Positions 7,940 through 50,645 of a stretch of DNA of 64,000 nucleotides are shown piece by piece (position 1 is the first letter of the stretch; the number at the start of each line of letters is the position of its first letter). The notes beneath the pieces are model-generated. The model saw only the letters and a program-made list of their open reading frames with translations, was not told where the DNA came from and ran no database searches. Position numbers and translations under genes: made by a program. The stretch is from contig CM046338.1 of the NCBI GenBank assembly GCA_025403435.1, positions 17,359,316 to 17,423,315 of the forward strand. The letters run 5' to 3'. This DNA is from Artocarpus heterophyllus. Its lineage: Eukaryota > Streptophyta > Magnoliopsida > Rosales > Moraceae.

Positions 7940-10900
7940 TCACATCATGGAACCAAGTCTCATTCGTACTACATGATCCTTGAAATTCTTTGGTGGCATG
8001 CCTTTAGTTTAAGGATCAACAATCATCAACTCAGTACTTACGTGCTCAATGACTACTTTCTTTTCTTTAACACGTTCTCTTATAGCTAAGTACTTAATGT
8101 CTATGTGTTTACTCCGACTACCGCTCTTGTTATTCTTAGCCATAAACACTGCAGCTGAATTGTCACAGTATAACCTCAATGACCTAGAAATATAATCCAC
8201 AATTCTAAGCCTAGATATAAAACTCTTCAACCATACACCATGCGAAGTACCTACAAATCAAGAAGAAAACTCAGCCTCCATAGTAGAGGTAGTAGTTAAA
8301 GTCTGCTTCACACTTCTCCAAGATACAGCTCCACCGACAAACATGAAAACATAACCAGATGTTGATTTTCACGAATCAACACAGCCAACGAAGTCTGCAT
8401 TAGAATATCTAATCACCTTTGGATTATCAGTTCATTTGTACATGAGCACGTAATCCTTAGTCCCTTGAACGTATCTCATCACCTTCTTTGCAGCTCTCCA
8501 ATAGTCAACACCTAGGTTACTCTGATATCTACTCAACATTACCACAGCAAATGCAATGTCAGGTCTTCTACAGAGCTGAGCATACATTAGGCTTCCAATG
8601 GCTGAAGTACATGGAATGTTTTTTATTTGTTCCCATTCAAGCTTATTTTTCGGGCACTGGTTCAAATTAAACCTATCACCCTTCACTAGAACCTAGTTAA
8701 TGCAAATCTCTTGAGACAAACCCAAAATACCTCGAGATCTATCTCTATGGATCTTAATGCCAATAACATAAGATACCTCTCCCACATCCCTCATATCAAA
8801 GTTCTTTGAGAGAAATTGTTTCACCTCATATAGTAATCCCTTATCATTAGTTGCAAGTAATATGTCATCCACATATAGCACAAGGAAACAAATCCTACTC
8901 CCACTGACCTCTAGTATATACATTGATCCATGATATTCTTTTCAAAACCAAATGAAGAGATAATGTCATGGAACTTCAAATACCACTGACGAGAGGCTTG
9001 TTTCAATCCATATATGGATTTTTTAAGCTTGTAGACTAAATGCTTGCCATCACTAGAGGAATATCCTTCTGGTTGTTTCATATAAACCTTTTCCTTTATA
9101 TCACCATTGAGAAAGGCTGTTTTCGCATCCATTTGATGCAAATCCATATCAAAATAGGAGACCAATGCCATAATGACTCGAAGAGAATCCTTTTTAGATA
9201 CAAGAGAAAAGGTCTCTATATAGTCGATTCATTCTCTTTGAGTGAATCCTTTGGCAACGAGTCTTGCCTTATGTCTTTCAATGTTGCCCAATGAGTCTTT
9301 CTTCATTTTAAAGACTCACTTACATCTAATGGTTTTTACACCATCAGGTAACTTAACGAGATCCTAGACTCTGTTAGATGCTATAGAATCCATTTTGTCT
9401 TTCATGGCGCTGTACCATAAGTCAAAATCCATAGAACTCACGGTCTATGAAAACGTTTCAGGATTTTTTTGGCTCTAAAATTGTAGTCAGGCTCTTGTAG
9501 ATATATAATATAGTCACTAGGCATCACCGATCAACTTTCTCTAGCAGATCTCCTTAATGTTGGTTCAACATTCTCCTCAATAGGTTCCTATATCTGTTGT
9601 TTAGCCGGATCCACTATTCTTGATCAGCAGTCTATGGAACTTGAACGACTTGTTTTTGTTCATCATGCATTTGAACTCTAGGCGTGTTGTGTACAACAAT
9701 CATTTTATCACAAGAAGTGGAAGGTTGAGCATTTATATGATCTTTCTCAGAAATAGTATTCCAAGATCGATTGCTCCCACTAATTAAGTCATTCTTAAGA
9801 AATTTTGAATTCCTTGATTCTACAAATCTACTTCTATGAGATGGACAATAAAATCTAATATCCTTTAGACCGTTTAACATAACCAACAAAATATCCATTT
9901 ACGGTCCTTGGGTCTAGCTTCTTCTATTGTGGATTATAAACTCTTACCTCTTACGAGCATCCCCAAATGCGTACATGTTGCAAACTTGGTTTCCAACCTT
10001 TGAATAACTCAAGAGGCGTCCTTCGGATAGCCTTGGTTGGAACTCGGTTCAATATATACACTGCCGTCTTAAGAGCTTGATCCACAAGAGCTCAGGAAGT
10101 TTGGAGCTTGCAAGCATAGTCTGTACCATGTCCAATAATGTTTAGTTTCTTCTTTTACCTACACCATTTTGGTCTGGAGAACCAGACATAGTGTATTGGG
10201 CAACAATCCCATATTCTTAAAGAAACCTAACAAATGGACCAGGACCTTGTCCATGCACAATATATCTACCATAGTACTCTCCACCTCTATTTGGTCTCAC
10301 GAACTTAATTTGTTTTCTGCATTGTTTCTTTACTTCTGCTTTAAAGACCTTAAAAGCATCTAGTGCTTTATTTTTATTGTTAAGCAAGTAGAGATACATG
10401 TATCATGAGTAGTCATCTATAAAAGTGACAAAGCACCTTTGAGAGTACGCATCCATGTCTGGACTAAAAATATCTATATGTATGATTTCTAATAAATCAG
10501 AACTCATCTTGGCACCCTTATTTGACTTGTTGGTCTGCTTACCCTTAATACAGTCCACATAAGTATCAAAATCAGTAAAATCTAAAGTACTAAGTACTCT
10601 ATCATTTACTAATATCTTAATTCTTTCAATAGTGATATGTCTCAATCTCTGATGCCATAACATAGAGGATTCATTGTTTACAACATAGCGCTTTATGTCA
10701 ACATTTTTATGAACATGCACAATAGTATAATTGGCATCATTTTGTAAATTAAGATGAAAAAGACCATTAGACAAAATACCACATCCAATAAAATCATATT
10801 TATAAAACAAACTGAACGAAGATTCTAAAAAATTAAGGGAATATCTAATTGATATAAGTCTAGAAACTGAAATTAAATTTCTAGAACAACTAGGTATATA

Positions 10901-11886
10901 GAATGTCTTTTCCAAATACAAAACAAGGCCACTACTTAAGACTAGTTTGCACGTTCCTATAGCCTCCACATGTGAGTGTATCTTATTTCCAGAGTAGATG
11001 TCTTGCTCATTTCCCACTGGCTTCCACAAGTCTTGCAATCCCTACAGGAAACTAGTAACATGGATTGTAGAACCGAAGTCAATCCACCATGTTTTATATT
11101 AACATAATCATATTGGGTTCATAATAAACAAATAAGAGTTGAGTACCTTTCTTATTAAGCTACTCCTAGAATTTAGAACAGTCCTTCTTTACGTTCTCCT
11201 TCTTCTTACAAAAAAAGCACTTAAACTCTTTCTTAATATCCGGTTGAGTAGGAACCTTACCTTTCCCCTTTTGCTTGGTCTGAAACTTCTTCTTATTTCC
11301 CTGGGTTGCTAGATTTACTTTCTCTCATTCTTCCATGATGAGTTTTCCCTCCTCCTAAAAACACATGGTCAATAGCTCATTAATTGACCATTTGTCCTTA
11401 TGTGTGTTATAAAAGATCTTAAAGGGACCATACTCCATGGGGAGAGTGTTCAGAATGTACTAAACTAGGAAAGAATCAGACATGTCAACCTCAAGTATCT
11501 TCAATTGAGCCACAATGTCCCTCATGCGCATGATATGCTCACGCACGTCTTTTATACTAGTAAGCTTTAAGATGAAAACTGCATGATCAAGAAGACTCAA
11601 ATTGCTCATTAGTAGTCTTCAGTAATGCTCGAACATGATCATATTGATCAACTGAACCCTTAATCCCAATAGAGATTATGGTCTTTATGAACATAACTAA
11701 GAGGCGATTGGATTGCTCCCATTTTCTATAATGATCAATATCATCTTGAGTGCTGGTCTTAGTGATATGGGGCAATACATCCTTTCTGATGGCATAGTCA
11801 ATGTCCATCCACCCCAAATGAAGGAAAATCCTCTTCTTCCATACTTTATAGTTATCACCCTTAAGCTCAGAAATATCACATTTCAT
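7940..11886 (-). pseudogene. Copia-1 gag-pol polyprotein, degenerate
   Basis: Read on the minus strand. Gag starts at 11886 (MKCDISELKGDNYKVWKK) and is open to 11587. A zinc-knuckle remnant CFFCKKKENVKKDC lies near 11170-11220, with the His of CCHC changed to Asn. The protease/integrase zinc region (HQRLRHITIERI, C..C spacing) and the start of the integrase core (IHIDIFSP, FVTFIDDYS) are in 10403-11038. The core continues in 10217-10399 (VRPNRGGEYYG). Reverse transcriptase is spread over 9171-8432 in two or three frames, with MDAKTAFLNGDI and an intact YVDD active site (LVLYVDDILLA). RNase H (YCDNSAAV) is at 8230-8009. Multiple stops and frameshifts break the single long ORF such elements normally have. 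Confidence 0.93.
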
Positions 11887-13144: not shown

Positions 13145-13614
13145 TGTTAGAAATTTTCGTATACAGAATTATGATTTTCATATATGCATGAATCCGAATT
13201 GCATAAAAAATCATCTAAATGCAGAAACATAAAAGAAAAGAAAATCTAAGTTCCAGCCATTGATAAATGCAGTAAGAATAGAGAATATCTCTGTAAGAAT
13301 TCCTGAAGAAATTTTATCTGAAAAAAAGAGAATCTTTTAAACCTTTTGCAATTTAGAGAAATGGTGTATTTCTGAATAACTGCAAGGCTTAGGGACCTTC
13401 TGAATTTTACGTGATAGTTATAAACACCTACTATCATGGTGTATGTTACTTTTCATTGAAAAAAGGCATTTTTTCTAAAATGTTATAATAGTTTTAAATA
13501 CCCTTTGATTAACACCCTTTAAAAAATACATGTATATTGGACCACTTAAATTTTTTATTTATTTATTATTATTTAAAAACTAAATAAATAATAAATTAAT
13601 TAATTAAAATAACA
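13145..13614 (-). repeat. Copia-1 5' LTR
   Basis: 470 bp, TGTTAG...AATAACA on the plus strand. The right-hand end abuts the TSD TCTTT. The right half of this LTR is also found at 49866-50130, upstream of the second receptor gene. Confidence 0.93.
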
Positions 13615-13945
13615 TCTTTCTATATATACAAGAACTGCATTTGCCTTCCCCCTAATCCCACACAAAAGAAAAACTATAGGTGTTGAAAAATCCATGAAAT
13701 GCTCTTTGAGTGTTCATTTTGCATTGATTCAAGGTACTAACATCTTTCTTTTAGAAAACCAATTAAATTTATATTTGTTATCATTTAAAAACTAAATAAA
13801 TAATAATAAATAAATTAAAATAACATCTTCTGTACATACAAGAACTACATTTTCCTTCCCCCTAATCCCACGCAAAAGAAAAACTATAGGCGTTGAAAAA
13901 TCCATGAGATGCTCTTTGAGTCTTCATTTTGCATTGACTGAAGGT
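13547..13945. repeat. Tandem duplication of LTR tail plus receptor-gene promoter flank
   Basis: The block running from the LTR tail through 'ccttccccctaatccca' to 'ttttgcattgactgaaggt' occurs twice (13547-13739 and about 13768-13945). Because each unit contains LTR sequence, the duplication happened after Copia-1 inserted. The same two-unit arrangement is at 50058-50468 in copy B. Confidence 0.85.
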
Positions 13946-14120
13946 GTTATCACTCATCCCATGTCCATTGACCGGCATGCATATGTGAGATGATTAAGTC
14001 ATAATCTCAAACAGCAAACATAGACATAAGGCTTTATTTATGTAAAAACCAACACTACGATTCCAGTAATCATTCCTGAGAGTTGCAGGACTTTTAAGAT
14101 ATCCCTTCTTTTCCCAAAAA

Positions 14121-16877
14121 ATGAGAAAAATCATTTGCCAAAATCAGTTCCTCATGGTTTACCTCATTTCATTTTGCTTTGTTGTTTCGCATTCCCTTCT
14201 CGCCTTTAGATGCCGCTCCGACCAAAGCTCTGCTTTGCTGCGGCTGAAACGAGAGTCTACAATTCAGAGGCGTTTCTTTGGTGATGCGTCTGAGCCAGTG
14301 AACATGGATACTTGGAAAGAAAATAGTGATTGCTGCTTATGGGATGGTGTGACATGTAATATGTCAACTGGTCATGTGATAAGCCTAGACTTAAGCAAAA
14401 GTGGGCTGCAAGGGCCTTTCCCCTCTAACAGCAGCCTCTTTAGCTTGGACCAACTCGAAGGACTCAATCTCACCTTCAACAACTTCAAGTTTTCTAGAAT
14501 TCCAACCGAGTTCAGTTGACTTTCAAGGTTAACTCATCTCAATCTCTCTAACTCCAAGTTCTCTGGGAACATCCCTTCAGAATTCTCATTGTTGATGGAT
14601 TTGGTTTCACTTGATCTTTCCGGAAACTATTTAGTTTCCAGTTTGCCAGACATAAAAACCCTTGTCCAAAATATGACAAATTTAACGGAACTCCACCTAG
14701 ATGATGTCAACTTTGATTCATCAGTACCCGAATCCCTAGTAAATTTATCTTCGTTGACACATCTCTCTCTTAGTGGATGCAATCTGGAAGGTGAGTTTCC
14801 ACAAGATATCTTCCAATTGCCTCATATTCAAACCATCATTGTGTCATACAACTATGATTTTATCATTGCTCTTCCTCCGTTTGAGTCTGGTAACTTTCTA
14901 AGGCTGTTGGATCTTTCCTTCACAAACTTTTCGGGGGAAATACCCAATTCAATTGGAAAGTTCAAGGCCTTGAATGTTTTAGATCTCCAATACTGTGAAC
15001 TCTCAGGGGCTATTCCTTCTTGGGTTGGGAATCCGAATCAACTCATATTTCTTGACTTATCATACAATAGATTTAACAGTAATCTTCCAGTTATATTGCG
15101 GAACCTTTCTCGGCTCAGGTGTCTTGACCTCTCAGACAAGAAGTTTGACGGTCAATTTCCATCTATGCTAGAATATCTCTCCCAACTCACGTATCTAGGC
15201 CTCTCATCTAACCACTTTAATGGTTCTGTTCCATTGACATTGGACAAAAATTTTCCAAAGCTCGCCGTTCTTAAGCTTGGTTCTAATGAATTTAGTGGTC
15301 GAATTCCATCTTCCATGGGGAACCTTACCCAACTAAGCTATTTGGACCTTTCTGATAACCTCTTCCATGGCAAATTTCCAATATCATTGGAAAATTTAAC
15401 CCAACTTCTCCGGTTGGATCTCTCAGAAAATCAATTTGCAGGTCCAATTCCATCCCATCTCTTTAGAAATTCCAATTCCATGATCAAACTATACTTGTCC
15501 GGGAATTCTTTCATTGGAGTTGTTCCTCCTTTGTTCACAATACCAGAGAAGTTCTTGTTGCTGGATGACAACCGGTTTACGGGCCCTCTCAGTATCAAGA
15601 ATATTTCTTCATCTCAATTGACACTTTTGTCTCTGAACAGAAACCATTTAAGTGGACAAATTCCGAGATCTATGTCAAATTCACAAACCTGAAAGGTCTT
15701 TTGCTTCAGTCCAATCTTTTAATGGGCCATTTTGAGTTTGATATGTTCCTCAAGCTACATGTTCTCGACTTGTCCTATAACAGATTGACAGGAACTCTTC
15801 CCAAATGTTTTGCTAGCTCTCTCTCTCAAGTAAACATACAGGGCAACAATTTTTATGGGAAGATACCTGAAACATACAAAGATGAATGCAACTTGAAAAG
15901 GTTGATCCTTGCCCGAAACCGATTACAAGGGAAGCTTCCACAATCATTGACCAAATGCAGATAATTAAGAACTATAGATCTCGGAGAAAACATATTACAA
16001 GATACATTTCCCTTTTTTTTACAGGCATTACCAAAGTTGGCCGTACTTGTATTAAGATCTAACAAATTCTATGGGCCTATATGGGATCCTGGTAAATTTT
16101 GGAGCTTTGTAGACTTGCGTGTTTGTGACTTCTCCCTTAATTACTTTAGTGGAGATCTTTCATCAGAATACTTTACAAATTGGAGTGTCATGACGGGTGC
16201 TACATATGTTCAAGAACTGTATGAATGGAAAACTGAGGATGCTTACTATCAACACTCTGACAACTTTTATGTATGACTTTGATGATAATGTGCGTCTGCA
16301 AAACTACTTGACCGTCTACAAGACCATTGCTCTATCAAACAACAGATTTCATGGCAAAGTTCCTGATAGCATTGGTGAGATCTCACCTCTAATACTGCTC
16401 AACTTGTCTTCTAAGAAGTTTGAAAGCCTCATCCCATTATCTCTGATGAATGTGGCTTGGCTTGAAGCATTAGATCTCTCCAGAAACAATCTCTCTGGAA
16501 GAATCCCGGACCAATTCATTTCTCTTTATTTTCTTCAACTTCTAAATCTCTCATACAACCAACTAATGGGGCCGATACCACATGGCTACCAGTTTGATAC
16601 ATTTACCAGTGGATCCTACATCGGAAACTTGAAATTATGTGGCTTGTCGTTGTCCCGTGAATGTGAGGACTCTGAAACACCAGTTTTTCATCATAGAAAG
16701 GAACAAGAATCAGAGGACAGTTTTGTCTGGAAATCAATATTATGGGGATACGGATATGGACTCGGGATTGGTTTCATTGCCGGAGTCATCGGCGCGCATA
16801 TCATTATCTCAAAGAAACTCAGCTGATTCGTAGAAACTTATGCTGAGTACATCAGCAGCCACATAGGAAAGCGGTGA
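14121..16877 (+). pseudogene. LRR receptor-like protein (Cf/RLP type) pseudogene, copy A
   Basis: Paralogue of the intact gene at 50646-53408, with the same start (MRKIICQNQF), signal peptide, LRRNT (CCLWDGVTCN), LRRs, island region, membrane segment and C-terminal AKR/GKR-like tail. Disablements relative to the intact copy: TGA at 14517-14519 for CAG (all three bases differ), one-base deletion near 15680 leading to a stop at 15690-15692, GAA to TAA at 15962-15964, one-base insertion near 16257 with a stop at 16274-16276, and TGG to TGA at 16824-16826 just after the membrane segment. Two small in-frame deletions lie near 15530-15550. With several independent lesions, it is a settled pseudogene and not an assembly error. 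The natural end would be TGA at 16875-16877. Confidence 0.95.
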
Positions 16878-17473
16878 TGCTGATCAGATGGACCAAGGTC
16901 CTCTTTTCTAAATTTTACTATTATTGCTTTCTATCTTTATACATATATCATGATAATAATTGTTAGTTTTTGTTTTTTTTTGTTTTGTTTTTTTTTTTTC
17001 CTGTCAGTAGCTACGCAGCAACAGCTACACCAAATTCATAAAACAAAATGAAGTGCAACTTTCTTTACTCTGTTCTTACAACGAAGGCAGCTTCAGAGGC
17101 AAAGAAATTCTCCCAATGGTTTCTTAATTAATAAATGTAGATCTTCCAGTGATGAGACTTTTTTCCACTCCTTTTATTGCAATAGGAATATGTTGAGTTT
17201 TCTATCTTGTTGTGTGTTTTTTGCGATGTCAAACTTTGAGTCTTTGGTACCAATGTGACAGGTGTTTGACATGGATACTGTCACAACTTGATACATGCAT
17301 CACGTACTGTACTTAATCAAAGAGAAATTTACTCTGAGAAAAAAAAAAGATATAAGTAGTCACTATTTATAATGGCCACTCAACTTAATACGAATAAAAA
17401 GTGAGGAGAAGAATGGTAATTTTAGACAAATAACTAATTCAATATTACTATTCTGCCACTCAACTTACTCGAG
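16878..17473. other. 3' flank of receptor pseudogene, no gene
   Basis: Collinear with 53409-53990 downstream of the intact copy, including a poly-T run and 'ctgtcagtagctacgcagca'. No coding content is seen; it probably includes the former 3' UTR. Confidence 0.6.
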
Positions 17474-17616
17474 CTTATTTGACATTAGTTAGTTCTTATC
17501 AACTTTTCAGTTAAGAATAATGTAAAGTTCTTTTATGTTACAATAAAAGCAAAAAAATTACTTTAGTGTAAAACTTTTATATATTACAATATTTACAATT
17601 TTAACCATCATGTCAG
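17474..17616. mobile_element. MITE of the TTTGGCA-ended family, copy A orthologue
   Basis: Contains the 'gtgtaaa.cttttatat.ttacaat' core shared with 43862-44026, 45311-45484, 49797-49865 and 53991-54150. Same position as the copy at 53991-54150, so it predates the segmental duplication. Its terminal motif is eroded. Confidence 0.6.
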
Positions 17617-18109
17617 ATATCGTGGGAGAACGATTCACATGTTGCTACTGGGTGCTTGAGATATAGTCAGCCAGTCAAAAATGGAGATCCACTGCTTGCA
17701 TTTATTGTCCTCTGTTACAAGGATAAGTTACGCAAGAAATCAACTTCGCAAATGGATGTGGTAGAAAAAGTTTTTTAAATCATCTACTTTGACTCAAACA
17801 CGTTGAAAAAAAGGGTCGTTCACACTTCAGTACTAATAAATGCAAAAATAGTGGAACCATGTGAGCTGGGATTGACCAAGCAAACCCTTAATTACTTCTT
17901 TCCAGATAAATGAGACAACCAAATGCCAAGTTGTTCAAATATACATATAATGTCTACTTCAGTAATATTTACGGAAACCATGTGAGGAAATTCATGAAAC
18001 AAATAAATAACACTCTTAACTTTCCAAGATAAATTCTACATCGAACGCAATACCTTTCAACTCATTTCTAATACCTTTCAACTCATTTCTATGAACTTGT
18101 AAGAGAGGT
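17617..18109. other. Receptor 3' distal flank
   Basis: No gene. Collinear with 54151-54638. It holds a private 20-bp tandem duplication of 'atacctttcaactcatttct' near 18050-18092, which is single in copy B. Confidence 0.6.
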
Positions 18110-18690
18110 TGTAATATACCTCTCAAATGTTTAAAGTCAAAGATCACACAAGAAAATTAAAAAACATGTATTTTTTAAGAGTTTGAAATTAATCGTCTAG
18201 TGTCGTAGCACTAGAAATTTGAAGATGTGGTGTTAGAATAGCGCAAAATTCGCTGTCAGGACAAAGAACTCCTGCCAAGTCATTTGGCTGGCATTGTAGC
18301 GTTGGCTGGGCAAGGTTCCACCGCTGCAGTCCTGAGCACTTGGCACTTCAACGCCAGAAAGTTAGTGCTGCGGCTTTTGAAGTGAGTGATTTTGAATTGC
18401 TTCAAAGCATTGTATTATTTGGTTGTATGTTTTAATACAAAATTGAATACTTAGAAGTAGACATTTTTGTTTTGATAGTTGTGTTGTTTCACAAAAGGAT
18501 ACCTTTACGTGAAAAGTTGTATGAGTTGTAATGAATGTGTTCAATCATAAAACGACACCTTTATGCCTTTATGAATACTCTGAAATTTCTAAATTTCATA
18601 TCTTGTTTAGGACTATCATATTATTGATGGTATTTAGGATTTATTGTATCTTGGAGGTAATTTGTTGAAATAGCCCATTAGCAAACTTCA
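18110..18690 (+). repeat. Copia-2 5' LTR, copy A
   Basis: Starts TGTAATATACC and aligns with the 3' LTR start at 39890 (TGTAAGATACATTG) through 'aaaattcg..caaagaac'. The probable end CAAACTTCA at 18690 is followed by TGGTAAGGGC, a degraded Met-tRNA primer site. The right boundary is inferred. Confidence 0.7.
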
Positions 18691-18756
18691 TGGTAAGGGC
18701 AAATAAAACCTCAAGGAAAGTATTCTTGTACAATCTTGAGGTTTTAATTTACTGCA

Positions 18757-21130: not shown

Positions 21131-21691
21131 TGTCATAACCCGTCTTTCTCAGGCTGTGATTAAATACTTTTCTTACTTACGTATTTATGAAAAACTTGGG
21201 AATATATTTTTTTATAATATATTTCACATACATACTTAAGCGTCACTTGTAAAACAAATATGTTCATATACTTATATAAACGGACCTTCTTTTAGCATAT
21301 TATTTGTTAAATATTTTCAAAAGAGATTATGTCTTCCTTAACTATACTACAGCTTCTATACATTAAGTTTCAAAATAACTTGAAATACAAAACAACGGAA
21401 ACATAGTTGTGGCAGTTTCCATACCCAGTTTTGCACATTACTTATATTCCTTCGCTAACTCATCAGTGAATTTATTCTTACCTCTTTATAGAAATTCCTA
21501 CAGCATGAAATACTAAGTGAGCTTATGCCCAGTAAGTCCAACATAGCCCACATGTAACATTCACTAATATGCATGATCTACTTAAGCTTTCTTATAAACA
21601 TTCTTTATCCTTATCATGTCTTATCTTTAACTAGGGCCCAAGTGCTTATACCATATATGCACATAGGTCTTCGTGACACTGAGACCATATC

Positions 21692-24052
21692 TGTGACATC
21701 CGTTATTCTCCTAACGGGTATTAAGGTAATTAAATTAATTTTTAGTGTATAAAAAAAAATTGCTTCATTTAAATTTATTTTATAATATTTATTTTTATCT
21801 ATTTTTAAATTTTCTAAAATTCTCGTATATTTATTTAGTATGATTACTAAAAAGCCTTAGAACTTCTAATAAATCTCAAAAATGTCATATTGGCATTATG
21901 TGTGTTAAAGTCTTTAGATGAGACATAAGGATATCTTTTCCAACTACTCTTGACCCTCATTTTCTTTATTTCCTCCGTGACATGCTTCAACATGTCTCCT
22001 CCATAATTGTTTCTATCACTTCTCTTCAAAGACTTCATCTTTTCTTCCTTTCTCTTCCACGGTTCCCACACTCTTCTTCTCATTTCTTTGCTGAAGCAAA
22101 ATACTTAGAGAACTTCTTCAAGGCAGGCATAAAAATCAGCCACCATCACCTCTATTTGAGCAAGAATTTTAGTCATACCGAAGTAAAAGAACCTGTTTTG
22201 AAGCCATTTCAAGCTTCCAACTAACCATAATCCGAGGTTAGAATCTTATGAACAAATTTAGTCTTTCATTTATAAATTTTCTTTTATACTAAAGGATTAT
22301 TCAAATTTGCGTTCTTAAACCTAAGTATATGTTTGTTGCTATTTTAGAGCATATGTATAAAGTCTAAGTGTATATGCCCTAGACAGAAAATTTATAGTGT
22401 AAACTTTGTAATACCTCTATGGGCAGTGGCTACTTCTTGAAATTCTGGGATTAAATTAAAATGAATTTTTTGAATTGGTTTGCATATTTGAAAAGTAGCA
22501 TCCTAAGCTTTCTAACGAGCTATCATAAACCTAAATCAGAGTTGTATTTTATTTTCTAAGAAATTATTCAATTTTCGGATTGGAAACTAGTAAACCTGCC
22601 AGTTTGTTATGGTATACCAGCTGCTAACCTAAATCAAGAACCCATCTTTGCTCACCACCTAATTCTTTAATGTCTTGCAACCTTTCCAATATTATCCTAA
22701 GTGATTGATGAATCTTATTAGGGACTAAAACATATAGATTACTTGTTCACATTTTATATTGTGTTAAGACAAAAATTGTTTACTGTGGTATTCAAAAGAG
22801 ATTTACATAAAAGCTTTAATGGTATACTAGTAAGATAGGTTTACACATGATTTATTTATGAATGTAGTTGTATGTTGTGCTTTAGTTTTAATTGTCCTTA
22901 TGCACGCCTTAGGATCAAGGGAGTATGGAGCTAACGTTAATTGATTCCAGGATTAAAAGATTGTTGATAAGCTTGAAAGGTAGGGATTCTATTACTCATC
23001 TTTTGTGAGGTTTTTATAGAATTAAAATTGATTGTTTTGCCGTAATATATATATATATCTATGTTGAACTGATATTATATGAGTATCACATATAAAACTA
23101 TGACATGGACTCGTCTTGTATTGTTCGACGAGGAACATAATGAATTTACACATGTTATAAATTGAGAAGCATGGTTAGGAAAACTGACTCTATTAATAAT
23201 GATTTAATATAGAGAAATGGTGAGACATGAAGAGGGCGGCGGTTACGTCCTTGGGCATGAATACCCTAAAAGGTAAAATAGGGGGAAGGTGATGACGCTT
23301 CCTTGGGTTAAAAGTCCCATAACACACTGTACAGGAATCGACTTGGTGAGGACTCGGGGCTTGATGTCCCCTCACCGGAACACCCTTGGAATGTTTATAG
23401 GGTGATCAAGTGCGCCCAATTGGGTTTCGATGAGTTGAGTGATACTCTATTTAACATGGATACCTAAGAACAATGATGATTGGTAATATTTGTATAAATG
23501 TGTAATTATGAAACTTGGTAATGATTAACTATGGTATCCATAAGATGTGATCATAATAAACCTCATAATCTGGAATATAATGTAACCTACTAACCATGCA
23601 GGTTTTAATGTGGTAATGATAAAAACCTAAAGGTGAGTAATGGTTTTCTCTACTGAGCATAGTGTTGCTCATTCCCTTATATTTTTACCTTTTCAGGACT
23701 CACTAAGTGTGGGTGGCTACGAGAAAAATAGTTGAGGAAGTGATGTAGCTATATTACATTGAGACTGCTTCAATTGTTGAGAATGTTCTTCATGATAATG
23801 TAAGCATCAATTGTTACTTTCTGTGACTGTATTACAATGCGTTGAGGGTTAAAATGATGATGACGACAGTTTATAATATTAAATTTAAGGTGCTACATTA
23901 AACTGTGGATAAATTGTCGATTATATTTTTATTTTTGATATTGAGAGTTTTTATTTAAGCCCTGGGCAACTTTATTTTTAAGGTTTTACTTTTATTTTTT
24001 ATTTTTATTTTATCTCATTAAAAACTGTTAACCCCTATATAGGGGCGTTACA
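21692..24052 (+). repeat. 5' LTR of the LOG-carrying retrotransposon
   Basis: 2361 bp, TGTGACATCCGTT...AGGGGCGTTACA. Contains a TACTGAGC...GCTCATTCCC hairpin and CAG near 23651-23697. The small ORFs in it (for example on both strands around 21850-22220) recur in the other LTR and look non-coding. Confidence 0.95.
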
Positions 24053-24059
24053 GAATTTT

Positions 24060-24071
24060 TGGTATCAGAGC
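24060..24071 (+). other. Primer-binding site (initiator Met-tRNA)
   Basis: TGGTATCAGAGC, a perfect match to the usual plant tRNA-Met complement, eight bases after the 5' LTR end. Confidence 0.93.
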
Positions 24072-25685
24072 CTAGGTTCGGTTAACCTAGGGAGTGTAGC
24101 ACCATTTAAAAAAAAAAATGCTTTTGAGATGGTTTTGAAGCTAAATTTTCATTGTCATCATCGAAATGAACCTTCACATTGATTTATACAGTCTAGAAGG
24201 ATGTACATAGAAAGACCCTAGAATGAAAATACTAATGGTTATATGAGTACAATAATTATATAGAAGGAAAGTATTAATAGTTATGAGGGAATGGTAATTA
24301 TATGGAATGAATTTATAAGTAGAATGCTTATGAGAGATTCGTATAATATTAGGATCTATAAGCATATAAGCATATCTAATTCGTATAAAACAATGAAAAA
24401 TTTGTGTAGATACGAGGATTTAAGAGCCTTTTGTCTCGTGAAAAACAATAAGAAATATAAGGCTTGATTTATTGATTTTAAAGTTTGGCATAGATATGCC
24501 AAATTTTTCGTAATTGATTCAAACCTAAGTAATGATTATGTGTGGATTCGGTGGAATACATAAGTGTCAATATCTTTTCTTAAAAGTTCTATTTATTTGA
24601 GGAATATGAGATAAGTTGGGAACCTATGGTATTGAATCTTGAGAGAGATAAACATTAGACTTCTGGTCTGTTGAGACGGTGTAAAGGCAAGAATGCATGA
24701 ATCTCAAAGTTGAAATATTTTGTTATGTACATTGTATTTAAGTGTATCAGTGAATCTTTATGAATAGATGTAATAAAAAAAAATGACCAATAGGAGTTTC
24801 CTTAAGTAAATCATAATACTTAAGGCACTTATAATAATTTTGGATAATTACGATAAAATGTTTAAGTTTTAGATGTTTAGATGTGAATCTTTTGGTTACC
24901 TAAGGTTTTGTTATATGAGGAAATTAGATATTGTATAAGTAGAATTGTGGGGATTGTAGATGTTCTTAAGTAGTAACATCAAGTGTCTTTTTTCATTGAT
25001 ATGGTCTATGTTGAAAGACGTAAATCGTATTGATTTCAAGGTTAGTCACATTCTAAACCCTTGGTAGACATGATGATGAATCCATTGATAGATGTTGAGT
25101 ATTATGAATAACATATGGGTGTATGCATTGTTCAATAAGGTTTTGATTAAAACAAAATTAATTGAGTTGCTAGAAGATTATGTTGTTATGAAATGATTTT
25201 AAATACCGTTCAGGAAGATCATTGATTGTCGTTAAATTAGATTTGTTGTTCATAGTTATCTTTATCTATAGTGGACTTTGAATTGGGTTTAAGATTTATA
25301 CAAATTGGTCTACAATTTTATGTTTGTTATTTAACTCGTTCTAAATGTGTTAAGGCCGGAAACAACCTGATCCTTTTCAACTTAGAACATTTGGGCCTAG
25401 TCCAAATCCTAAATCAGTTTGACTCACACTGTCTCTCCCACGTGGTCTCTATACGTGTCATATACAGTGGTTTAATTATTGTTTACATATACGTTTACTG
25501 TGCATAGGAGCTTATTTCTTCGAGCTCACTTTTTCTCTCTTAATTTGTTATTTTCTCTCTAAATCGCAAATCCTCTTCTTTTTCACTAGAAATTCTTCTT
25601 TCCCTCTAAAAGAAGAAGGAATTCTAGGATTCTGCAACTTACTATCTTAATTTTTCCTTTCTATTTACTTTCCTTTCATCTCATC
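24072..25685. other. Retrotransposon internal leader, no ORF recognised
   Basis: AT-rich, stop-dense. No gag motifs are seen in any frame. The last 340 bases before the first ORF become pyrimidine-rich (25520-25680), resembling a 5' untranslated leader. The ORF at 25271-25507 has no family resemblance and is not called. Confidence 0.5.
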
Positions 25686-26207
25686 ATGGACCCAAAGTAC
25701 CAACACCTGAGAAAGTATTTCCCATCACTCTCCCAAAAGATTCTCAGAAAGAAATACAAGGCTAGAATTACTCGGTTGTGGATTCTTATGCGTTTTGGCA
25801 TCCCTTGTGATGTGAGAATGTTGATAGAGGGGAAGATCCGTCCGAGTGACTTCAGTCAAGATGTCGGTTTACCAGGAACAAGTACCAGTCGTAGTGCAAT
25901 AAAAAGAAGAGCTCGCGCCATCGTGGTCGCTTGTAACAAATGTGGAAGACAAAATTGTAACGGTAAATGTACTTCACCTAGTTATATGTCTACGAATAGA
26001 GAGGATAAAATAAGGTTTTGTAAGGATGGACTTTCAAAGGAGAACTTGGATAGCATCCATCCTCCTCTTCACGGTCACCCTAGTGGATATGTTCAAGGAG
26101 CTATTTTTAAACTCTGGCCTAAATTTTATGCAGAAAGACAACGCCTCAGGAATATGGTATTTTTAGATCCTGTTTGCCAAGCCATAAGAAAACTGGATGG
26201 GGAATAA
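25686..26207 (+). CDS. Cys-rich basic protein, possibly plant-virus-type nucleic-acid-binding protein
   Basis: An intact 173-residue ORF starting MDPKYQHLRKY after a pyrimidine-rich leader. The N-terminal half is basic and helical-looking (KILRKKYKARITRLWILM). Next is a linker with KRRARA (about residues 73-80), then a Cys cluster CNKCGRQNCNGKC (CX2CX4CX3C, about residues 83-95) that could bind zinc or nucleic acid. After it come LSKENLDSIHPP and a C-terminal hydrophobic/basic segment. It is not gag: there is no CCHC knuckle and no capsid-like segment. The order of a cellular-looking helical region, an RR-basic patch and a compact Cys cluster recalls the small nucleic-acid-binding/silencing-suppressor proteins of filamentous plant RNA viruses. 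That is inference from architecture only. It could equally be a captured host gene. It lies 600 bp upstream of the LOG-like ORF on the same strand. Confidence 0.5.
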   Translation: MDPKYQHLRKYFPSLSQKILRKKYKARITRLWILMRFGIPCDVRMLIEGKIRPSDFSQDVGLPGTSTSRSAIKRRARAIVVACNKCGRQNCNGKCTSPSYMSTNREDKIRFCKDGLSKENLDSIHPPLHGHPSGYVQGAIFKLWPKFYAERQRLRNMVFLDPVCQAIRKLDGE

Positions 26208-26806
26208 GTCATCGCTCTATAAAGGTTATTTAGTCTTTGCTTATTTGAAGCAGTTTTAGCTGATGTTCAATAGTTTGTGTTTTTCTTTTACTCAGAATAT
26301 TTGCTTTTGTGTTTGAAATAATTATGATTATTAGATTGATACAGTAAGTGTTAATATCTCATTTAATTTATGATTTTCTTAAATATATATATATAATAAA
26401 ATATATTATCTTATCAGACACGTCACATACGGTACAGTAACATGTTTGAATTTTGAAAAAAAACCTTATCCAGATATTTCAAGATTTGTGTCTCAAATTT
26501 CAAAAGTTCTACAGTATTTGTCGTTTATATTGAATTTTTAGACTCGGTGTATATTTGTCAAAAGGTCTACAGTTTTGTCAAGAGGGTCTTCTGTCAAACT
26601 GTTCTCAATTGTCAAAAGTTATACAATTAGAGTTAAATCTTTTTCAAAAAGTGAATCAGATTTTCTGTAAACTATCAATCACCTTAACTTACTTTCTTAT
26701 CCACACAAGATTTTATTTAAATCTTTGGATTACCTACTCGTCTGTCTCTTTAGCCATTTTTGTGTATTTCTCATCTTTAAAATCTCATATAGAACCCGAA
26801 GTCTAA

Positions 26807-27495
26807 GTGGAGCAGACATTAAGCAACCACTTATACAAATCAAATATGTCTACCTCCCAGTCCACGAAGAAAATAAAGAATGTCTGTGTCTTTTATGGTT
26901 CCAGCCTTGGAAAAGATAAAGCTTATTTAGAAGCTGCAAATCACTCAGGGCAAGTCCTAGCATGCAGGAAGATTAACATAATCTATGGGGGTGGTAGTAT
27001 AAAAATAATGGAAAATATGACGCTAGCAGCTAGGTCTGGTGACGCTACAGTTGTAGGAATTTGGCCTCATATTCCAGCTGAAGGAAACCCTTATAAGGAA
27101 GCCATAGGTAAGGGAAAAGGAGTCAGGAGCATCCCTAGAAATTTTAAAGACATAATCTATAATTCTGATGCTTTTATAGCATTACCTGGTGGTCTAGGTA
27201 CTCTTGAGGAAATATTCGTAGTCGCTTGTGGGCAATTGTTGGGCTTTTATTCCAAACCTTTGGGACTGCTGAATGTAAATGGTTTTTATGACGGTCTTTT
27301 GAAATTTCTAGATTACGCTGTGGAAGAAAACATACTACAGAATCGGAGAGACAAATCTTTGTTACTGCTTCAACAGCTGAGGAATTGATAGATAAAATGC
27401 AAATTATACATCCAGAATCCGACACTGCAACATCCAAGCTTGAATGGGAAAAGGAAAGCCGAGAGCGGCCAATTGATTTGAATCTCCATCTGTAA
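26807..27495 (+). pseudogene. LOG-like cytokinin riboside 5'-monophosphate phosphoribohydrolase ORF, intronless, one frameshift
   Basis: Family members release active cytokinin bases from their riboside 5'-monophosphates in the cytosol. The likely start is the Met at 26846 (MSTSQSTKKIKNVCVFYGSS), since the earlier in-frame Met at 26807 adds residues outside the fold. Visible Rossmann-type motifs are VCVFYGSS near the N-terminus, IIYGGGSI, NSDAFIALPGGLGTLEE (the diagnostic PGGxGTxxE with its Glu), and KPLGLLNVNGFYD. The usual second-glycine GLMG and RKAEMA motifs are altered (SIKIMEN, PRNFKDII), so catalysis is doubtful. Frame is lost near 27343-27350, and the family C-terminus (RQIFVTAS, TAEELIDKM) continues in another frame to TAA at 27493-27495. 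Plant LOG genes have several introns and this copy has none, implying capture through RNA. Confidence 0.85.
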
Positions 27496-27630
27496 TCTTT
27501 TGGTTTTATCTATGGCATGTAGGCATGTGTGTCCGTATTTCGTGTGTTACGAATAACAGTTTGTCTTGTATTCTGTGTTTCTTGTGGTACGTCGTTGTTC
27601 AATCTTTTAGATTCATTGAGCCTAATGCCG

Positions 27631-27673
27631 GGATGGCTGGATACGGAGTACTTGATGCTCTCGAAGCGCATCC
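27631..27673 (+). ncRNA. Structured RNA hairpin unit 1 downstream of the LOG-like ORF
   Basis: A 43-nt unit closed by GGATG/CATCC with an inner hairpin GAGTA-cttga-TGCTC. It shares most positions with the second unit at 27734-27777, including 'tacggagt' and 'ctctcgaa'. The paired bases differ between units in a way that keeps pairing, so a conserved RNA fold is likely. The function is unknown. Confidence 0.55.
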
Positions 27674-27725
27674 TACTTAAGATCCGATCTTTTGTTTATC
27701 GATGTTTTTGTATTCCCTAAGCATG

Positions 27726-27785
27726 CATGATATGGATAGCTGGTATACGGAGTGCCTTGTACTCTCGAAACGTATCCATATCATG
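27726..27785 (+). ncRNA. Structured RNA hairpin unit 2 with 13-bp outer stem
   Basis: Perfect inverted repeat CATGATATGGATA (27726-27738) and TATCCATATCATG (27773-27785). It encloses an inner hairpin GAGTG-ccttg-TACTC and the shared 'ctctcgaa' segment. The closing pair GGATA/TATCC replaces GGATG/CATCC of unit 1. Confidence 0.6.
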
Positions 27786-28442
27786 TTTGTAATGTGTAAT
27801 ATTCTGTTAATATTATGTGGAAGTACCAAAGTCAGTTATAGGGATATTCCATATGAAATATGAGTATGTTATTTGGGTTGAATGTTTGTGTCATGAGGAT
27901 AGCTGTTTAATGAAAAATATGTCGGGTTTGTCTGCAACTCTGAGATTCCGTTTAATATCTCTATGAATAAGTTTAATGTATGGTTTTGAATAGAAGTGTT
28001 TGTGATATATGTTTTATGATTATGTTTTAGTTTATTAGTTGAGGTATGAAATCAAATATATTTGACTTTTCCTTACTCAAAAAGGAAAAGGAACCTAAAG
28101 ATGAAGTATATAAAATTTCTCTGGCAATCTCCTTAAATGTGATTGTAAATCACAGTCCATGGACAATGAAGGACTGGAATCATGTTATGGTCAATATATA
28201 TGTCTGATCAGATTCCTAGACCATTATATAGTGTTATAAGTTGAAACTTGTCAGAAATACTCTCATTGAGGGATTTAGAATTTAGAGTAAGATTTATTAT
28301 GCAAGTAACCAACTGGAGATACGATGACTTAAATTTGGAGGACAAACAACATTAACGGTTTAGACTCGGAACTAGAATCATAATGGAATCAAAATTTTTG
28401 CTATTATTGCTAGAATTGAAATTCCGAGGACGAAATTTCTTT
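27786..28442. other. Retrotransposon 3' internal region
   Basis: No ORF recognised. The end of the stretch ('gaattgaaattccgaggacg') is the conserved pre-PPT sequence of Tekay-type gypsy elements. Confidence 0.6.
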
Positions 28443-28456
28443 AAGGGGGGTAGAGT
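28443..28456 (+). other. Polypurine tract
   Basis: AAGGGGGGTAGAGT immediately before the 3' LTR start TGTGACATCC. Confidence 0.93.
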
Positions 28457-30830
28457 TGTGACATCCGTTATTCTCCTAACGGGTATTAAGGTAATTAAAT
28501 TAATTTTTAGTGTATAAAAAAAATTGCTTCATTTAAATTTATTTTATAATATTTATTTTTATCTATTTTTAAATTTTCTAAAATTCTCGTATATTTATTT
28601 AGTATGATTACTAAAAAGCCTTAGAACTTCTAATAAATCTCAAAAATGTCATATTGGCATTATGTGTGTTAAAGTCTTTAGATGAGACATAAGGATATCT
28701 TTTCCAACTACTCTTGACCCTCATTTTCTTTATTTCCTCCGTGACATGCTTCAACATGTCTCCTCTATAATTGTTTCTATCACTTCTCTTCAAAGACTTC
28801 ATCTTTTCTTCCTTTCTCTTCCACGGTTTCCACACTCTGCTTCTCATTTCTTTGCTGAAGCAAAATACTTAGAGAACTTCTTCAAGGCAGGCATAAAAAT
28901 CAGCCACCATCACCTCCATTTGAGCAAGAATTTTAGTCATACCGAAGTAAAAGAACCTGTTTTGAAGCCATTTCAAGCTTCCAACTAACCATAATCCGAG
29001 GTTAGAATCTTATGAACAAATTTAGTCTTTCATTTATAAATTTTCTTTTATACTAAAGGATTATTCAAATTTGCGCTCTTAAACCTAAGTATATGTTTGT
29101 TGCTATTTTAGAGCATATGTATAAAGTCTAAGTGTATATGCCCTAGACAGAAAATTTATAGTGTGAACTTTGTAATACATCTATGGGCAGTGGCTATTTC
29201 TTGAAATTCTGGGATTAAATTAAAATGAATTTTTTGAATTGGTTTGCATATTTGAAAAGTAGCATCCTAAGCTTTCTAACGAGCTATCATAAACCTAAAT
29301 CGGAGTTGTATTTTATTTTCTAAGAAATTATTCAATTTTCGGATTGGAAACTAGTAAACCTGCCAGTTTGTTATGGTATACCAGCTGCTAACCTAAATCA
29401 AGAACCCATCTTTGCTCACCACCTAATTCTTTAATGTCTTGCAACCTTTCCAATATTATCCTAAGTGATTGATGAATCTTATTAGGGACTAAAACATATA
29501 GATTACTTGTTCACATTTTATATTGTGTTAAGACAAAAATTATTTACTGTGGTATTCAAAAGAGATTTACATAAAAGCTTTAATGGTATACTAGTAAGAT
29601 AAGTTTACACATGATTTATTTATGAATGTAGTTGTATGTTGTGCTTTAGTTTTAATTGTCCTTATGCACGCCTTAGGATCAAGGGAGTATGGAGCTAACG
29701 TTAATTGATTCCAGGATTAAAAGATTGTTGATAAGCTTGAAAGGTAGGGATTCTATTACTCATCTTTTGTGAGGTTTTTATATAATTAAAATTGATTGTT
29801 TTGCCGTAATATATATATATATATATATATATATATCTATGTTGAACTAATATTATATGAGTATCACATATAAAACTATGACATGGACTCGTCTTGTATT
29901 GTTCGGCGAGGAACATAATGAATTTACACATGTTATAAATTGAGAAGCATGGTTAGGAAAACTGACTCTATTAATAATGATTTAATATAGAGAAATGGTG
30001 AGACATGAAGAGGGCGGTGGTTACGTCCTTGGGCATGAATACCCTAAAAGGTAAAATAGGGAGAAGGTGATGACGCTTCCTTGGGTTGAAAGTCCCATAA
30101 CACACTGTACAGGAATCGACTTGGTGAGGACTCGGGGCTTGATGTCCCCTCACCAGAACACCCTTGGAATGTTTATAGGGTGATCAAGTGCGCCCAATTG
30201 GGTTTCGATGAGTTGAGTGATACTCTATTTAACATGGATACCTAAGAACAATGATGATTGGTAATATTTGTATAAATGTGTAATTATGAAACTTGGTAAT
30301 GATTAACTATGGTATCCATAAGATGTGATCATAATAAACCTCATAATCTGGAATATAATGTAACCTACTAACCATGCAGGTTTTAATGTGGTAATGATAA
30401 AAACCTAAAGGTGAGTAATGGTTTTCTCTACTGAGCATAGTGTTGCTCATTCCCTTATATTTTTACCTTTTCAGGACTCACTAAGTGTGGGTGGCTACGA
30501 GAAAAATAGTTGAGGAAGTGATGTAGCTATATTACATTGAGACTGCTTCAATTGTTGAGAATGTTCTTCATGATAATGTAAGCATCAATTGTTACTTTCT
30601 GTGACTGTATTACAATGCGTTGAGGGTTAAAATGATGATGACGACAGTTTATAATATTAAATTTAAGGTGCTACATTAAACTGTGGATAAATTGTCGATT
30701 ATATTTTTATTTTTGATATTGAGAGTTTTTATTTAAGCTCCGGGCAACTTTATTTTTAAGGTTTTACTTTTATTTTTGATTTTTATTTTATCTCATTAAA
30801 AACTGTTAACCCCCATATAGGGGCGTTACA
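28457..30830 (+). repeat. 3' LTR of the LOG-carrying retrotransposon
   Basis: 2374 bp, near-identical to 21692-24052. The main length difference is an expanded AT microsatellite at about 29808-29836. Confidence 0.95.
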
Positions 30831-30994
30831 ATATCATAACCTTAAACTCCCCTTGAATTGGGAGTTGATACAACACTTTCCTATATTTTTGGTGTTGCAT
30901 TTACCAATTCGATTATTATAGTTATCATATCATGCATGAGGTCATATTCACATATTAAGTGCAAAGACCTAAACACTCCAACTAAATAGTACAC

Positions 30995-31145
30995 ACAGAT
31001 ATATATTTTTATATACTCACAGGTATACATATTAATGCACACACAAGTACACATATTACTATACACACAGGTATACATTTTGTTGTACATACTCAGGTGT
31101 TCATTTTGATATACACATAGGTATATAAATACGTACATGTAAATC
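30995..31145. repeat. Minisatellite of about 37 bp inside the outer solo LTR
   Basis: Four to five diverged units with 'acacacaggtatacat' and 'tatatactcacaggtata' themes. It lies within the older solo LTR, not in the young element. Confidence 0.7.
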
Positions 31146-33293
31146 ACATTCAATACCCACTATTCCATACTGTAGGTGGGGTTGGTACTTACTTGTTTAA
31201 GCTACTATACAAGCCGACCTCAGTTCTCTTTTTCCTAATCTTCTAGGGTCCTATGTGGCCAATTACAACGCTATTAGCTAAATTTTCACTATTTCATCTG
31301 TGCATTAATACAAAATGTTCATTAACCGAAGGATCGGGTTGCATTACTGTCTATAACTCCGATAATCACGGATTCTCTCTATCCGTTCTTACTCTATCTT
31401 ATTGTCTCTAACGAAAAGCAAAGATCTTACTAATAATCCCTTCTTCCTATTTTGAACGTTCCGAAACTGTTTGGGACACTTGTTGGAAAAAAGACGATTT
31501 TGCCCTCAGTGGGCCTTTAAAATTTCTCAAACCTGTTTTTGCTATTTTAACGAAAATTGTTACTTATTAGCTTTTAAAAAACACTCCGAGGTGTTGGGTT
31601 TTCTTATTTTACATTAATGCCCCAGTTTAATAAAACTTTGCAATTACGTCCTCATTTGAAAATTTTGACAATTTTACCCCTGGAACCAAAAATAATTTCT
31701 TTAATCCAAAATATTTCATTTTTCGTAAGGATCAAATTTTCTCAAAATAGCATACCCAAAATCCTTTTGCAAAATGACGTTTCTGCCCTTTAAAATTTTT
31801 TATAATTTTAACAAATTTTGTAAAATCTATAACTCACCAACGAATGTGATTTTCAATGAACCATCTGCGATTCCTAACAGTTTTGTCAAGATCTACAACC
31901 TTTGTGTTTTGACTTTTTCAAAATTCCTACTATACAGGGGAGTTTTTAGTCATTTTTCAAATCTGTCAAGAATGTAATTTTATTTGCAATTTAGTCCTTA
32001 GGCCATTTTTGTAAAAATCAGTTTTAAAACAACATTCTAGCCACTGTTTATGTAATTCCATATCCTTCTCCAACAATTCTCATGCCAAATCACCATTCTT
32101 TGCAAAACTAATATCAGAATTACAAAACTAACCTACTTTTGCATCAACCAACACTTTTCACATTTAAACCCTAATTTCAACAACACCATCATATCATAAA
32201 CCATATACTTAAGAAATTCAGGCCATTCTCTTGCTTAAATACCCACATGCCTTATTAAATGTTCAAAATCAAAATAAAACCAAATAAACTTTAAGTTTGG
32301 GGGTTAAAACTTACCCAAAAGAAAAACTTGTGATTCTTAGTCCTCCAAGGGCTCCTTTGAAAATTTTCCTAAGCACTTTTCACATGAGAATATCTTGAAT
32401 CAAATTTCCCCCTTAACCCAAGAGAAAACCCTAGGAGAACTTGGAAAAAGTTTAGATTTTTACCTCAAAAGTTGATAAAATCCTTTGAACTTTGCTTCTT
32501 GAATTCAATTGGCGTCAATTTTGCAAAGATTTGAAGTTGGAAAATTTTTGGAGAAATGCTTCTATGGCTGCCCATTGTGGGGAGAAATAAATGAAAGAAA
32601 ATTGTTTCTTAAGCCTTTAATTAAGGCTTATCTTATAAGAGATTTTTTTTAAATGGGTGAGTCATCTTCTAGTCATCATGAAGGGTAACCTAATGGCTTA
32701 TTGTGATTGGGCCACATTAGGTGGTATGGTGGCCCAATCGAATTTTGTCAAAGTGTCCACTTTACTTTTTCCTACACAGTGTAATTTTTTCGCCATACAG
32801 TATTTTTCCTATACTGTTGAGTTAAAACTGATAAAAATGTACACTTAAACAGTATAACATATCCTACTATGTCTTTGGTTTACTTTTAGAATCCAAACAT
32901 AACATTTCTTATATCTGTGTTTTTACTTAGCAGTATACTTATACTACATCGACCCCTTTTTCACTATTCTAGGGTTTTGGCAGACTTTCTACCTTATTTA
33001 TATCTTAATTACCTATCCATTTATATCACAATTAAAATATTACAATTCTATAATTAATTGTGATATAAAATTTATTTCATGGATATTATTTACAAATTTC
33101 AAAGTACTTAAACTCACAAAATCTATATTTTACAATATCCAACATTACATCAAGTCTACAGTGAAATTTCCTATTAACACTGTTTATTGTAGTTTATCGT
33201 AATTTTACAAAAAGATAATTTATGAAGGTAAATTCATTAATTAGATCAAATTAAATATTATATTTTATTAATGAATTTTCCTTGGTCATTACA

Positions 33294-50468: not shown

Positions 50469-50645
50469 GGTATTATCAATCATCCCAAGTCCATTGACCT
50501 GCATGTATGTGTGAAATGATTAAGTCATAATCTCAAACAGCAAACATAGACATAAGGCATTATTTATGTAAAAAATAACACTACGAGTCCAATAATCATT
50601 CTTGAGAGTTGTAGAACTTTAGGATATCCCTTCTTTTCCCAAAAA

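Follow-up and report, generated by a model that had tools for sequence, protein, structure and literature searches.

The window, by which we mean the whole stretch of 64,000 nucleotides analysed from Artocarpus heterophyllus, contains a 9.1-kb sequence that is a young LTR retrotransposon without recognisable gag or pol. Both LTRs end in TG...CA, and the target-site duplication ATATC flanks the element on each side. Its features are as follows.

21687 to 21691, no strand: left target-site duplication, ATATC
21692 to 24052, plus strand: 5' LTR, 2361 bp, from paired-LTR alignment and BLAST
24060 to 24072, plus strand: primer binding site TGGTATCAGAGCC, which we take to be of the tRNA-Met type
25686 to 26207, plus strand: Cys-rich ORF of 173 aa, intact, from a plant family akin to the nucleic-acid-binding/cysteine-rich proteins of flexiviruses
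26846 to 27388, plus strand: open portion (180 aa) of the LOG-like ORF, with PGGLGTLEE
27334 to 27495, plus strand: remainder of the LOG-like protein, read in a different frame and closing with the LxLxL tail IDLNLHL
28443 to 28450, plus strand: polypurine tract AAGGGGGG
28457 to 30830, plus strand: 3' LTR, 2374 bp, from paired-LTR alignment and BLAST
30831 to 30835, no strand: right target-site duplication, ATATC

The primer binding site and the polypurine tract lie at the places expected for an LTR retrotransposon. The LTRs align over 2360 columns with 22 substitutions, namely 18 transitions and 4 transversions; there are also 2 gap events, and a 14-bp AT microsatellite accounts for one of them. 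The K2P distance is 0.0094, and BLAST gives 98.4% identity over 2375 columns with gaps counted. Thus, the LTR pair of about 1% divergence, the polypurine tract and the duplication described in an earlier sequence-only reading are real. That reading also called the primer binding site perfect; TGGTATCAGAGCC is present and presumably matches initiator tRNA-Met, but the word is generous, since we take the ungapped fit to be limited to 13 bases. Substitution rates of 1.3e-8 and 4e-9 per site per year are used for dating LTRs, and the insertion would be about 0.36 Myr old at the former or 1.2 Myr at the latter. Assignment to the Tekay type, made from terminal motifs alone, is tentative.

The interior was scanned against Pfam in six frames, with X placed at stops. 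It gave LOG-type domains (PF03641, 5.7e-19; PF18306, 5.9e-10) and one further match below threshold (PF04455, E 0.24). The same scan found no gag, reverse transcriptase, RNase H, integrase or chromodomain, no other viral domain, and no domain in the Cys-rich ORF; neither the gag nor the pol of an autonomous Ty3/gypsy element is recognisable. Both ORFs lie on the sense strand of the element, and their stop-to-stop frames (205 and 193 aa) are longer than any in 500 base-composition shuffles of the interior, where the longest sense frame reached 165 aa. An interior with two sense ORFs in the absence of gag and pol motifs, as had been described, is borne out. With its long LTRs and such an interior, the element presumably resembles LARD-type non-autonomous LTR elements, from which it differs in carrying two identifiable accessory ORFs.

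The LOG identity proposed for the second ORF passed the family HMM (PF03641, E 2.1e-20, with 73.7 bits where the cut-off is 27), and the ORF is intronless. The frame changes near 27334, and the final 53 residues are read in another frame to 27495. An intact relative of 216 aa, P0001 (8 members on 12 contigs), is 90% identical to the LOG-like query over 91%. The LOG fold and the PGGxGTxxE motif are present. In CgLOG numbering, Glu122 is retained in both the window copy and P0001, whereas the proposed catalytic Arg99 is Asn in both, and all five named residues of the prenyl pocket differ in both (Met96 to Ile, His97 to Pro, Lys100 to Phe, Glu125 to Val or Ile, Trp129 to Gly). In CgLOG, alanine at the crucial residues, S19A excepted, nearly abolishes activity according to the passages concerned (PMC4979012). 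Judged from these residues, the protein of this lineage has probably lost enzyme activity. The loss appears clear for the window/P0001 lineage only: elsewhere in the LOG-like clade, Arg99 is retained by 109 of 120 members, Glu122 by 118, Met96 by 116 and Trp129 by 117, and three of the five pocket residues are mostly changed in the wider clade. In the LOG tree, the window copy and P0001 sit on a very long stem of 1.06 changes per column, and the LxLxL C-terminal tail is common in the clade.

The Cys-rich ORF is the more interesting part of the element, and its kinship was missed in the sequence-only reading: judged by its family members, it is related to the nucleic-acid-binding proteins (NABPs) of flexiviruses. 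It has a basic patch, IKRRAR, followed by the four-Cys cluster CNKCGRQNCNGKC, and shares both features with the CRP/NABP families of alpha- and betaflexiviruses (PF05515, PF01623). Precomputed annotation places PF01623 in 13 of its 14 phmmer relatives, with PF05515 too in some. When eight relatives were scanned individually, six scored above the curated threshold for either Viral_NABP or Carla_C4, the best with 34.2 bits against 23, but P0121 (92% identical to the ORF over 80%) and P0125 missed both models. The window's own ORF also reached neither PF05515 nor PF01623, and its sole Pfam match was MCM_OB, below threshold (E 0.021). The viral link passes through relatives at about 50-60% identity.

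A profile search with the ORF gave 856 proteins at E <= 1, and all 7 organism-named entries among the best 120 come from plant records, whose contigs measure 16-150 Mb. In the family tree, whose rows were selected at a length of at least 170 aa, 72 of 118 are exactly 182 aa. The fold search against BFVD separated 14 matches at a probability of at least 0.41 from the remaining 35 at 0.09 or less. Twelve of these 14 top-ranking matches are named, all presumably from flexiviruses: ten labelled nucleic-acid/RNA-binding or silencing suppressor, one NBP and one "15kDa protein". The model is weak (pTM 0.51), the best E is 4e-3 with none at or below 1e-3, and the 14 matches have TM-scores of 0.23-0.39 when normalised by query length. 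The PDB search gave no useful match (best E 3.0), and among IMG/VR sequences no relative was confirmed. As shown by its relatives, the protein belongs to a widespread plant family matching the flexivirus NABP/CRP families. Its plant members differ from the viral ones in being encoded in chromosomes and in a retroelement, and in being mostly 182 aa long. A zinc-knuckle remnant of Gag was rejected as the source of the ORF, since the six frames hold no gag and the profile family is of the NABP type.

One other locus, L001, lies on a contig that we regard as a plant contaminant in a bacterial MAG. There, an integrase frame at 104-1594 (rve 2.4e-16, H2C2 1.4e-12) is followed by an NABP ORF at 1799-2344, in sense and directly behind the Ty3/gypsy integrase; this is one locus, without LTRs. 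The Viral_NABP match covers residues 36-123 of its protein and 114-205 of the 227 profile positions. Between the window and L001, the Cys-rich ORFs differ at 44, 30 and 57% of first, second and third codon positions, with dN 0.48 and a saturated dS of 4.86. An accessory ORF of the Athila/Tat type would lie in sense between pol and the 3' LTR; the L001 ORF stands behind the integrase in a locus without LTRs, and the window element has no pol.

We consider it reasonably probable that the element is a young LTR retrotransposon of the Ty3/gypsy type, non-autonomous, with accessory genes in its interior in place of gag-pol. The element would be transcribed from its own LTR, and an autonomous relative would provide packaging and reverse transcription of its RNA in trans, a step suggested by the young LTRs alone. 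The Cys-rich protein would be a nuclear nucleic-acid binder that aids elements, most likely by dampening RNA silencing in the manner of viral NABP/CRPs, several of which are silencing suppressors in the passages concerned (PMC12172455). It would be a virus-type accessory protein, perhaps a silencing suppressor. The LOG-like protein may have departed from cytokinin metabolism in this lineage, where its active site is eroded; three of the five pocket residues are mostly changed across the wider clade. The clade would have retained it for some other role, of which the LxLxL tail is the mark; the window copy of the ORF appears to be decaying.

A more general form of this reading can be offered only tentatively. 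Plant Ty3/gypsy elements as a class may have, among their accessory genes, a homologue of the cysteine-rich silencing suppressor of flexiviruses; non-autonomous relatives may have shed gag-pol but kept this homologue, alongside a LOG-fold protein that may recruit the TOPLESS co-repressor through its LxLxL tail. If true, a single family of anti-silencing proteins would be common to retroelements and RNA viruses, and the elements would possibly be its older reservoir.

Of the alternatives, the one that survives best, though still doubtful, is that the interior consists of recombinant fragments (an accessory ORF and a captured LOG) without present function, moved by means of intact termini and packaging signals. 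Many elements of the non-autonomous type carry no functional genes, the LOG-like frame is broken though the element is young, and L001 has no blastn match better than E 0.6 to the interior outside the Cys-rich ORF. However, the Cys-rich ORF is intact and its family shows near-constant length and codon-like constraint. Furthermore, P0001 and P0121, from other public assemblies that may belong to the same species, are 90-92% identical copies of the LOG-like and the Cys-rich protein, respectively. Slightly less probable is a role of the Cys-rich protein as a nucleocapsid-like chaperone or as a packaging factor of the element rather than as a silencing suppressor; it would then resemble viral NABPs through shared nucleic-acid binding. 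The basic patch and four-Cys cluster would suit such a role in an element that has no recognisable gag of its own; against it, the Viral_NABP match of the L001 protein exceeds a bare zinc knuckle, and that protein goes with an element that bears pol and so would possess a gag already.

The sequence-only reading had proposed a mobile element able to alter host cytokinin, which supposes that the element retains a working LOG enzyme and shifts host cytokinin to its own benefit. The fold, the motif, Glu122 and the intact P0001 are compatible with this, but the broken frame in the window copy, the replacement of Arg99 and of the whole prenyl pocket even in P0001, the effect of alanine changes in CgLOG (PMC4979012, passages concerned) and the very long window/P0001 stem make it very improbable. 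Cytokinin activation by the element was rejected for this lineage on the active-site residues and the broken frame. Least credible is a plain endogenous viral element, in which a flexivirus fragment integrated once and was later caught by an LTR element: homology to viral NABPs favours it, but the 856 relatives at E <= 1 of near-constant length, with plants as the source of all 7 named among the best 120, the interior without another viral domain by Pfam, and the L001 copy behind an integrase all speak against it.

Some parts of this picture have precedents. Steinbauerova et al. reportedly described, in 2011, two Athila-like elements with extra ORFs similar to LOGL4. LOG/YgdH domains are recorded in plant Gypsy elements of Citrus sinensis, C. 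clementina and Populus trichocarpa (the last without filter) in the relevant passages of a later paper (PMC9289625, citing Steinbauerova et al., 2011). A LOG-type domain in a plant Gypsy element is thus already known. Those elements share with ours a LOG-family domain inside a Gypsy-type LTR element, but in the same passages their consensuses are built around reverse transcriptase, which the window element does not show, and the window LOG has an eroded active site. The terms "carla" and "NABP" are absent from the main text of that paper by term search. Extra ORFs, often 3' of pol, are likewise described for Athila, Tat/Retand and Tekay, and the flexivirus NABP relative is not named in the passages concerned (PMC7264820; PMC6317226; PMC11963269; PMC11728184). 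There, the Tekay ORF is proposed as a modulator of RNA silencing (PMC11728184), and the large survey counted only extra ORFs of at least 250 codons, so that a 182-aa ORF lies below its limit (PMC6317226). Insect retrotransposons with viral helicase domains also carry a plus-RNA-virus domain, with weak silencing suppression reported, but they are LINEs and some LTR elements with another protein, as far as the passages concerned go (PMC6338049; PMC5563155; PMC4686597). Among flexivirus-like plant sequences, betaflexivirus replicase is the only one named in the relevant passages (PMC3136472). A link between NABPs and retroelements is described in no title or abstract among the best literature matches.

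Many of the extra ORFs in plant LTR elements have no known source or function, according to the passages concerned (PMC7264820). A large family of near-constant length akin to viral silencing suppressors offers one such ORF a function that can be tested. It also makes one ask in which direction the gene passed between RNA viruses and retroelements. A second test case is the LOG clade with the LxLxL tail, of an enzyme fold maybe repurposed by mobile elements. As a minor observation, the interior also contains direct repeats, e.g., 27641-27673 and 27745-27777.

Sequence comparison and a Pfam scan bore out the first description of the element at 21692-30830, namely an LTR pair with target-site duplication, PBS and PPT, and no gag-pol domains. 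It would be a non-autonomous LTR element acting as the carrier of a broken LOG-fold gene and an intact protein of viral type.

Features of the element
21692-30830, LTR retrotransposon; the target-site duplication ATATC flanks both ends
LTRs of 2361 and 2374 bp, which begin TGTGACATCC and finish GCGTTACA
24060-24072, PBS
25686-26204, Cys-rich ORF, 173 aa, intact
28443-28450, PPT

The LTRs differ by 22 substitutions over 2360 aligned columns (K2P 0.0094) and, besides these, by one 14-bp AT-repeat difference. In the six-frame Pfam scan the 4.4-kb interior yielded LOG-type domains, whereas gag, RT, RNase H, integrase and chromodomain all gave no match. Upstream of the PPT lie two copies, 79% alike, of a 33-nt repeat (27641-27673 and 27745-27777). 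The element is itself nested inside an outer insert roughly 3.0 kb long (window 21131-33293, compared against 57867), which is bounded by TGTCATAACCC...CATTACA with TATAT at either side and is missing from a paralogous segment. This outer insert looks like a solo LTR.

The Cys-rich protein has 14 relatives at E <= 1. In the aligned set of 15, Carla_C4 is matched at E <= 0.1 by 13/15 and Viral_NABP by 12/15; the window protein matches neither of these flexivirus families at that threshold, and its only Pfam match is a sub-threshold one to MCM_OB (E 0.021). When eight relatives were scanned singly, six passed the curated cut-off of Viral_NABP and/or Carla_C4 (P0122, P0124, P0126, P0127, P0128 and the protein of contig L001), and the closest relative, P0121, and P0125 reached neither. 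The top score is that of the L001 protein (34.2 bits against the Viral_NABP cut-off of 23, profile positions 114-205 of 227). A profile search with the family returned 856 proteins at E <= 1; among the best 120 of them no virus is the source organism, and the seven with a named organism (Xanthoceras, Populus (2), Acer, Rhamnella, Hibiscus and Orobanche) sit on contigs of 16-150 Mb. In the tree (118 rows, made up of proteins of at least 170 aa plus the window and L001; P0121 and P0123 were too short and left out), P0122 is the partner of the window protein with support 100/99, and 72 of the 118 rows are exactly 182 aa long. Four cysteines and a basic patch of KKRRAK type are among the positions that at least 90% of the 126 aligned rows retain.

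The predicted model of the Cys-rich protein is moderate (mean pLDDT 73.6, pTM 0.51), and a PDB fold search with it gave no useful match. In the viral fold database BFVD, the top 14 matches lie at probability >= 0.41. Two are nameless and 12 named, ten of which are labeled nucleic-acid/RNA binding or RNA silencing suppressor; the other two are an NBP and, from Cherry mottle leaf virus, a 15kDa protein. The viruses of all 12 are flexiviruses. The other 35 matches lie at probability <= 0.09, one being a silencing suppressor of Chrysanthemum virus B. This model-based result supports the Pfam link to flexivirus proteins without being proof alone, because no E falls to 1e-3 or below (the lowest is 4e-3) and the TM-scores are low.

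The virus-type protein appears also to follow pol in at least one further Ty3/gypsy element. A pattern scan of genome contigs gave 103 matches, of which one locus, L001, was confirmed.

Features of contig L001
1-3330, whole contig of 3330 bp (DAIEQH010000041.1), filed under a Candidatus Nomurabacteria MAG
1799-2344, NABP-like ORF, 182 aa, in the same direction as the integrase frame and after it
near 2600, purine tract TTGGGGGG, after the NABP-like ORF

The integrase frame, 496 aa long, carries a zinc-binding domain and a core domain, matches no chromodomain and presumably resembles Athila-type integrases. No LTR is seen within the 3330-bp contig. L001 is probably plant DNA contaminating the MAG, because it has a Ty3/gypsy integrase and its ORF has plant relatives. 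By blastn, the window and L001 show clear DNA similarity in the NABP ORF only (other matches E >= 0.05); tblastx adds an integrase match at the window end, 63647-63988. Differences between the two NABP ORFs by codon position (44, 30 and 57%; dN 0.48, dS saturated) fit constraint at the protein level.

Several viral NABP/CRP members are described as silencing suppressors, and one additionally as a transcription factor (PMC12172455). Since several viral members suppress silencing, a putative anti-silencing role may naturally be inferred, by analogy, for the Cys-rich protein. Extra ORFs are well known in plant LTR elements (PMC7264820), and a Tekay aORF has been proposed as a modulator of silencing (PMC11728184). 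The threshold stated in the main survey of extra ORFs is at least 250 codons, so that a 182-aa protein would escape it (PMC6317226). A link between flexivirus NABPs and plant retroelements was not found in titles or abstracts among the matches listed.

The sequence-only reading had also proposed a LOG-like ORF; its family assignment stands (PF03641, 2.1e-20 in Pfam; closest PDB relative Arabidopsis 2a33), but the frame is broken in the window copy. This copy is 90% identical up to residue 163 to its closest relative, P0001 (216 aa, intact; 90% identity with 91% of the query covered; 8 members on 12 contigs). The final 53 residues lie in a different frame and are still 98% identical to P0001, so the break looks recent. 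LOG structures are the top matches to the predicted fold of P0001 (mean pLDDT 74.7). In CgLOG, Arg99 and Glu122 are catalytic, and Met96, His97, Lys100, Glu125 and Trp129 belong to the prenyl pocket (PMC4979012). In the same numbering the window has Ile96, Pro97, Asn99, Phe100, Val125 and Gly129 and retains Glu121 and Glu122; P0001 agrees at the positions compared, save Ile125. The window gene is broken and probably non-enzymatic. Among the relatives, Arg99 is found in 109/120, Glu122 in 118, Met96 in 116, Trp129 in 117, His97 in 16, Lys100 in 4 and Glu125 in 3, counts that apply to the nearest clade and not to LOGs at large, because these 120 (P0001 included) are the best of 1789 proteins at E <= 1e-3.

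In the same best 120 of 1789, LxLxL occurs inside the final 11 residues of 78, and 96 are at least 195 aa long. LxLxL is the form in which the EAR repression motif binds TOPLESS co-repressors; the tail itself may bind them. A midpoint-rooted tree with 100 rows (the window, 97 relatives at least 190 aa long and two PDB LOGs, the last being partial stretches whose own C-terminal ends fall outside the tail comparison) places the two Arabidopsis LOGs and the tail-less P0068, P0115 and P0118 on one side. The other side holds 95 rows (support 100/99): 82 with the tail in a slightly wider pattern, 12 without, plus the window. The tail does not strictly go along with the pocket change, since P0052 has both Lys100 and the LxLxL tail. 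In the P0001 model the tail is of low confidence (residues 194-216 below 50). Some Populus members of the clade sharing this C-terminal LxLxL (P0002-P0120) are annotated LOGL10, and the clade possibly consists of retroelement genes annotated as host LOGs. For two Citrus species and, when unfiltered, Populus trichocarpa, YgdH domains are reported within Gypsy consensuses (PMC9289625).

Elsewhere in the window, duplicated segments at 13352-18721 and 49862-55274 are 83-91% identical and contain open frames that look LRR receptor-like by eye; the latter segment holds one of 950 aa, the former two pieces, 390 and 210 aa long. A Transposase_28 ORF (60044-61501, +) is antisense to the integrase-like piece at 63647-63988 (-), an arrangement described in Retand elements. 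A fragment at 10406-11041 (-) has gag-pre-integrase and Pol beta-barrel domains and is presumably of Ty1/copia type.
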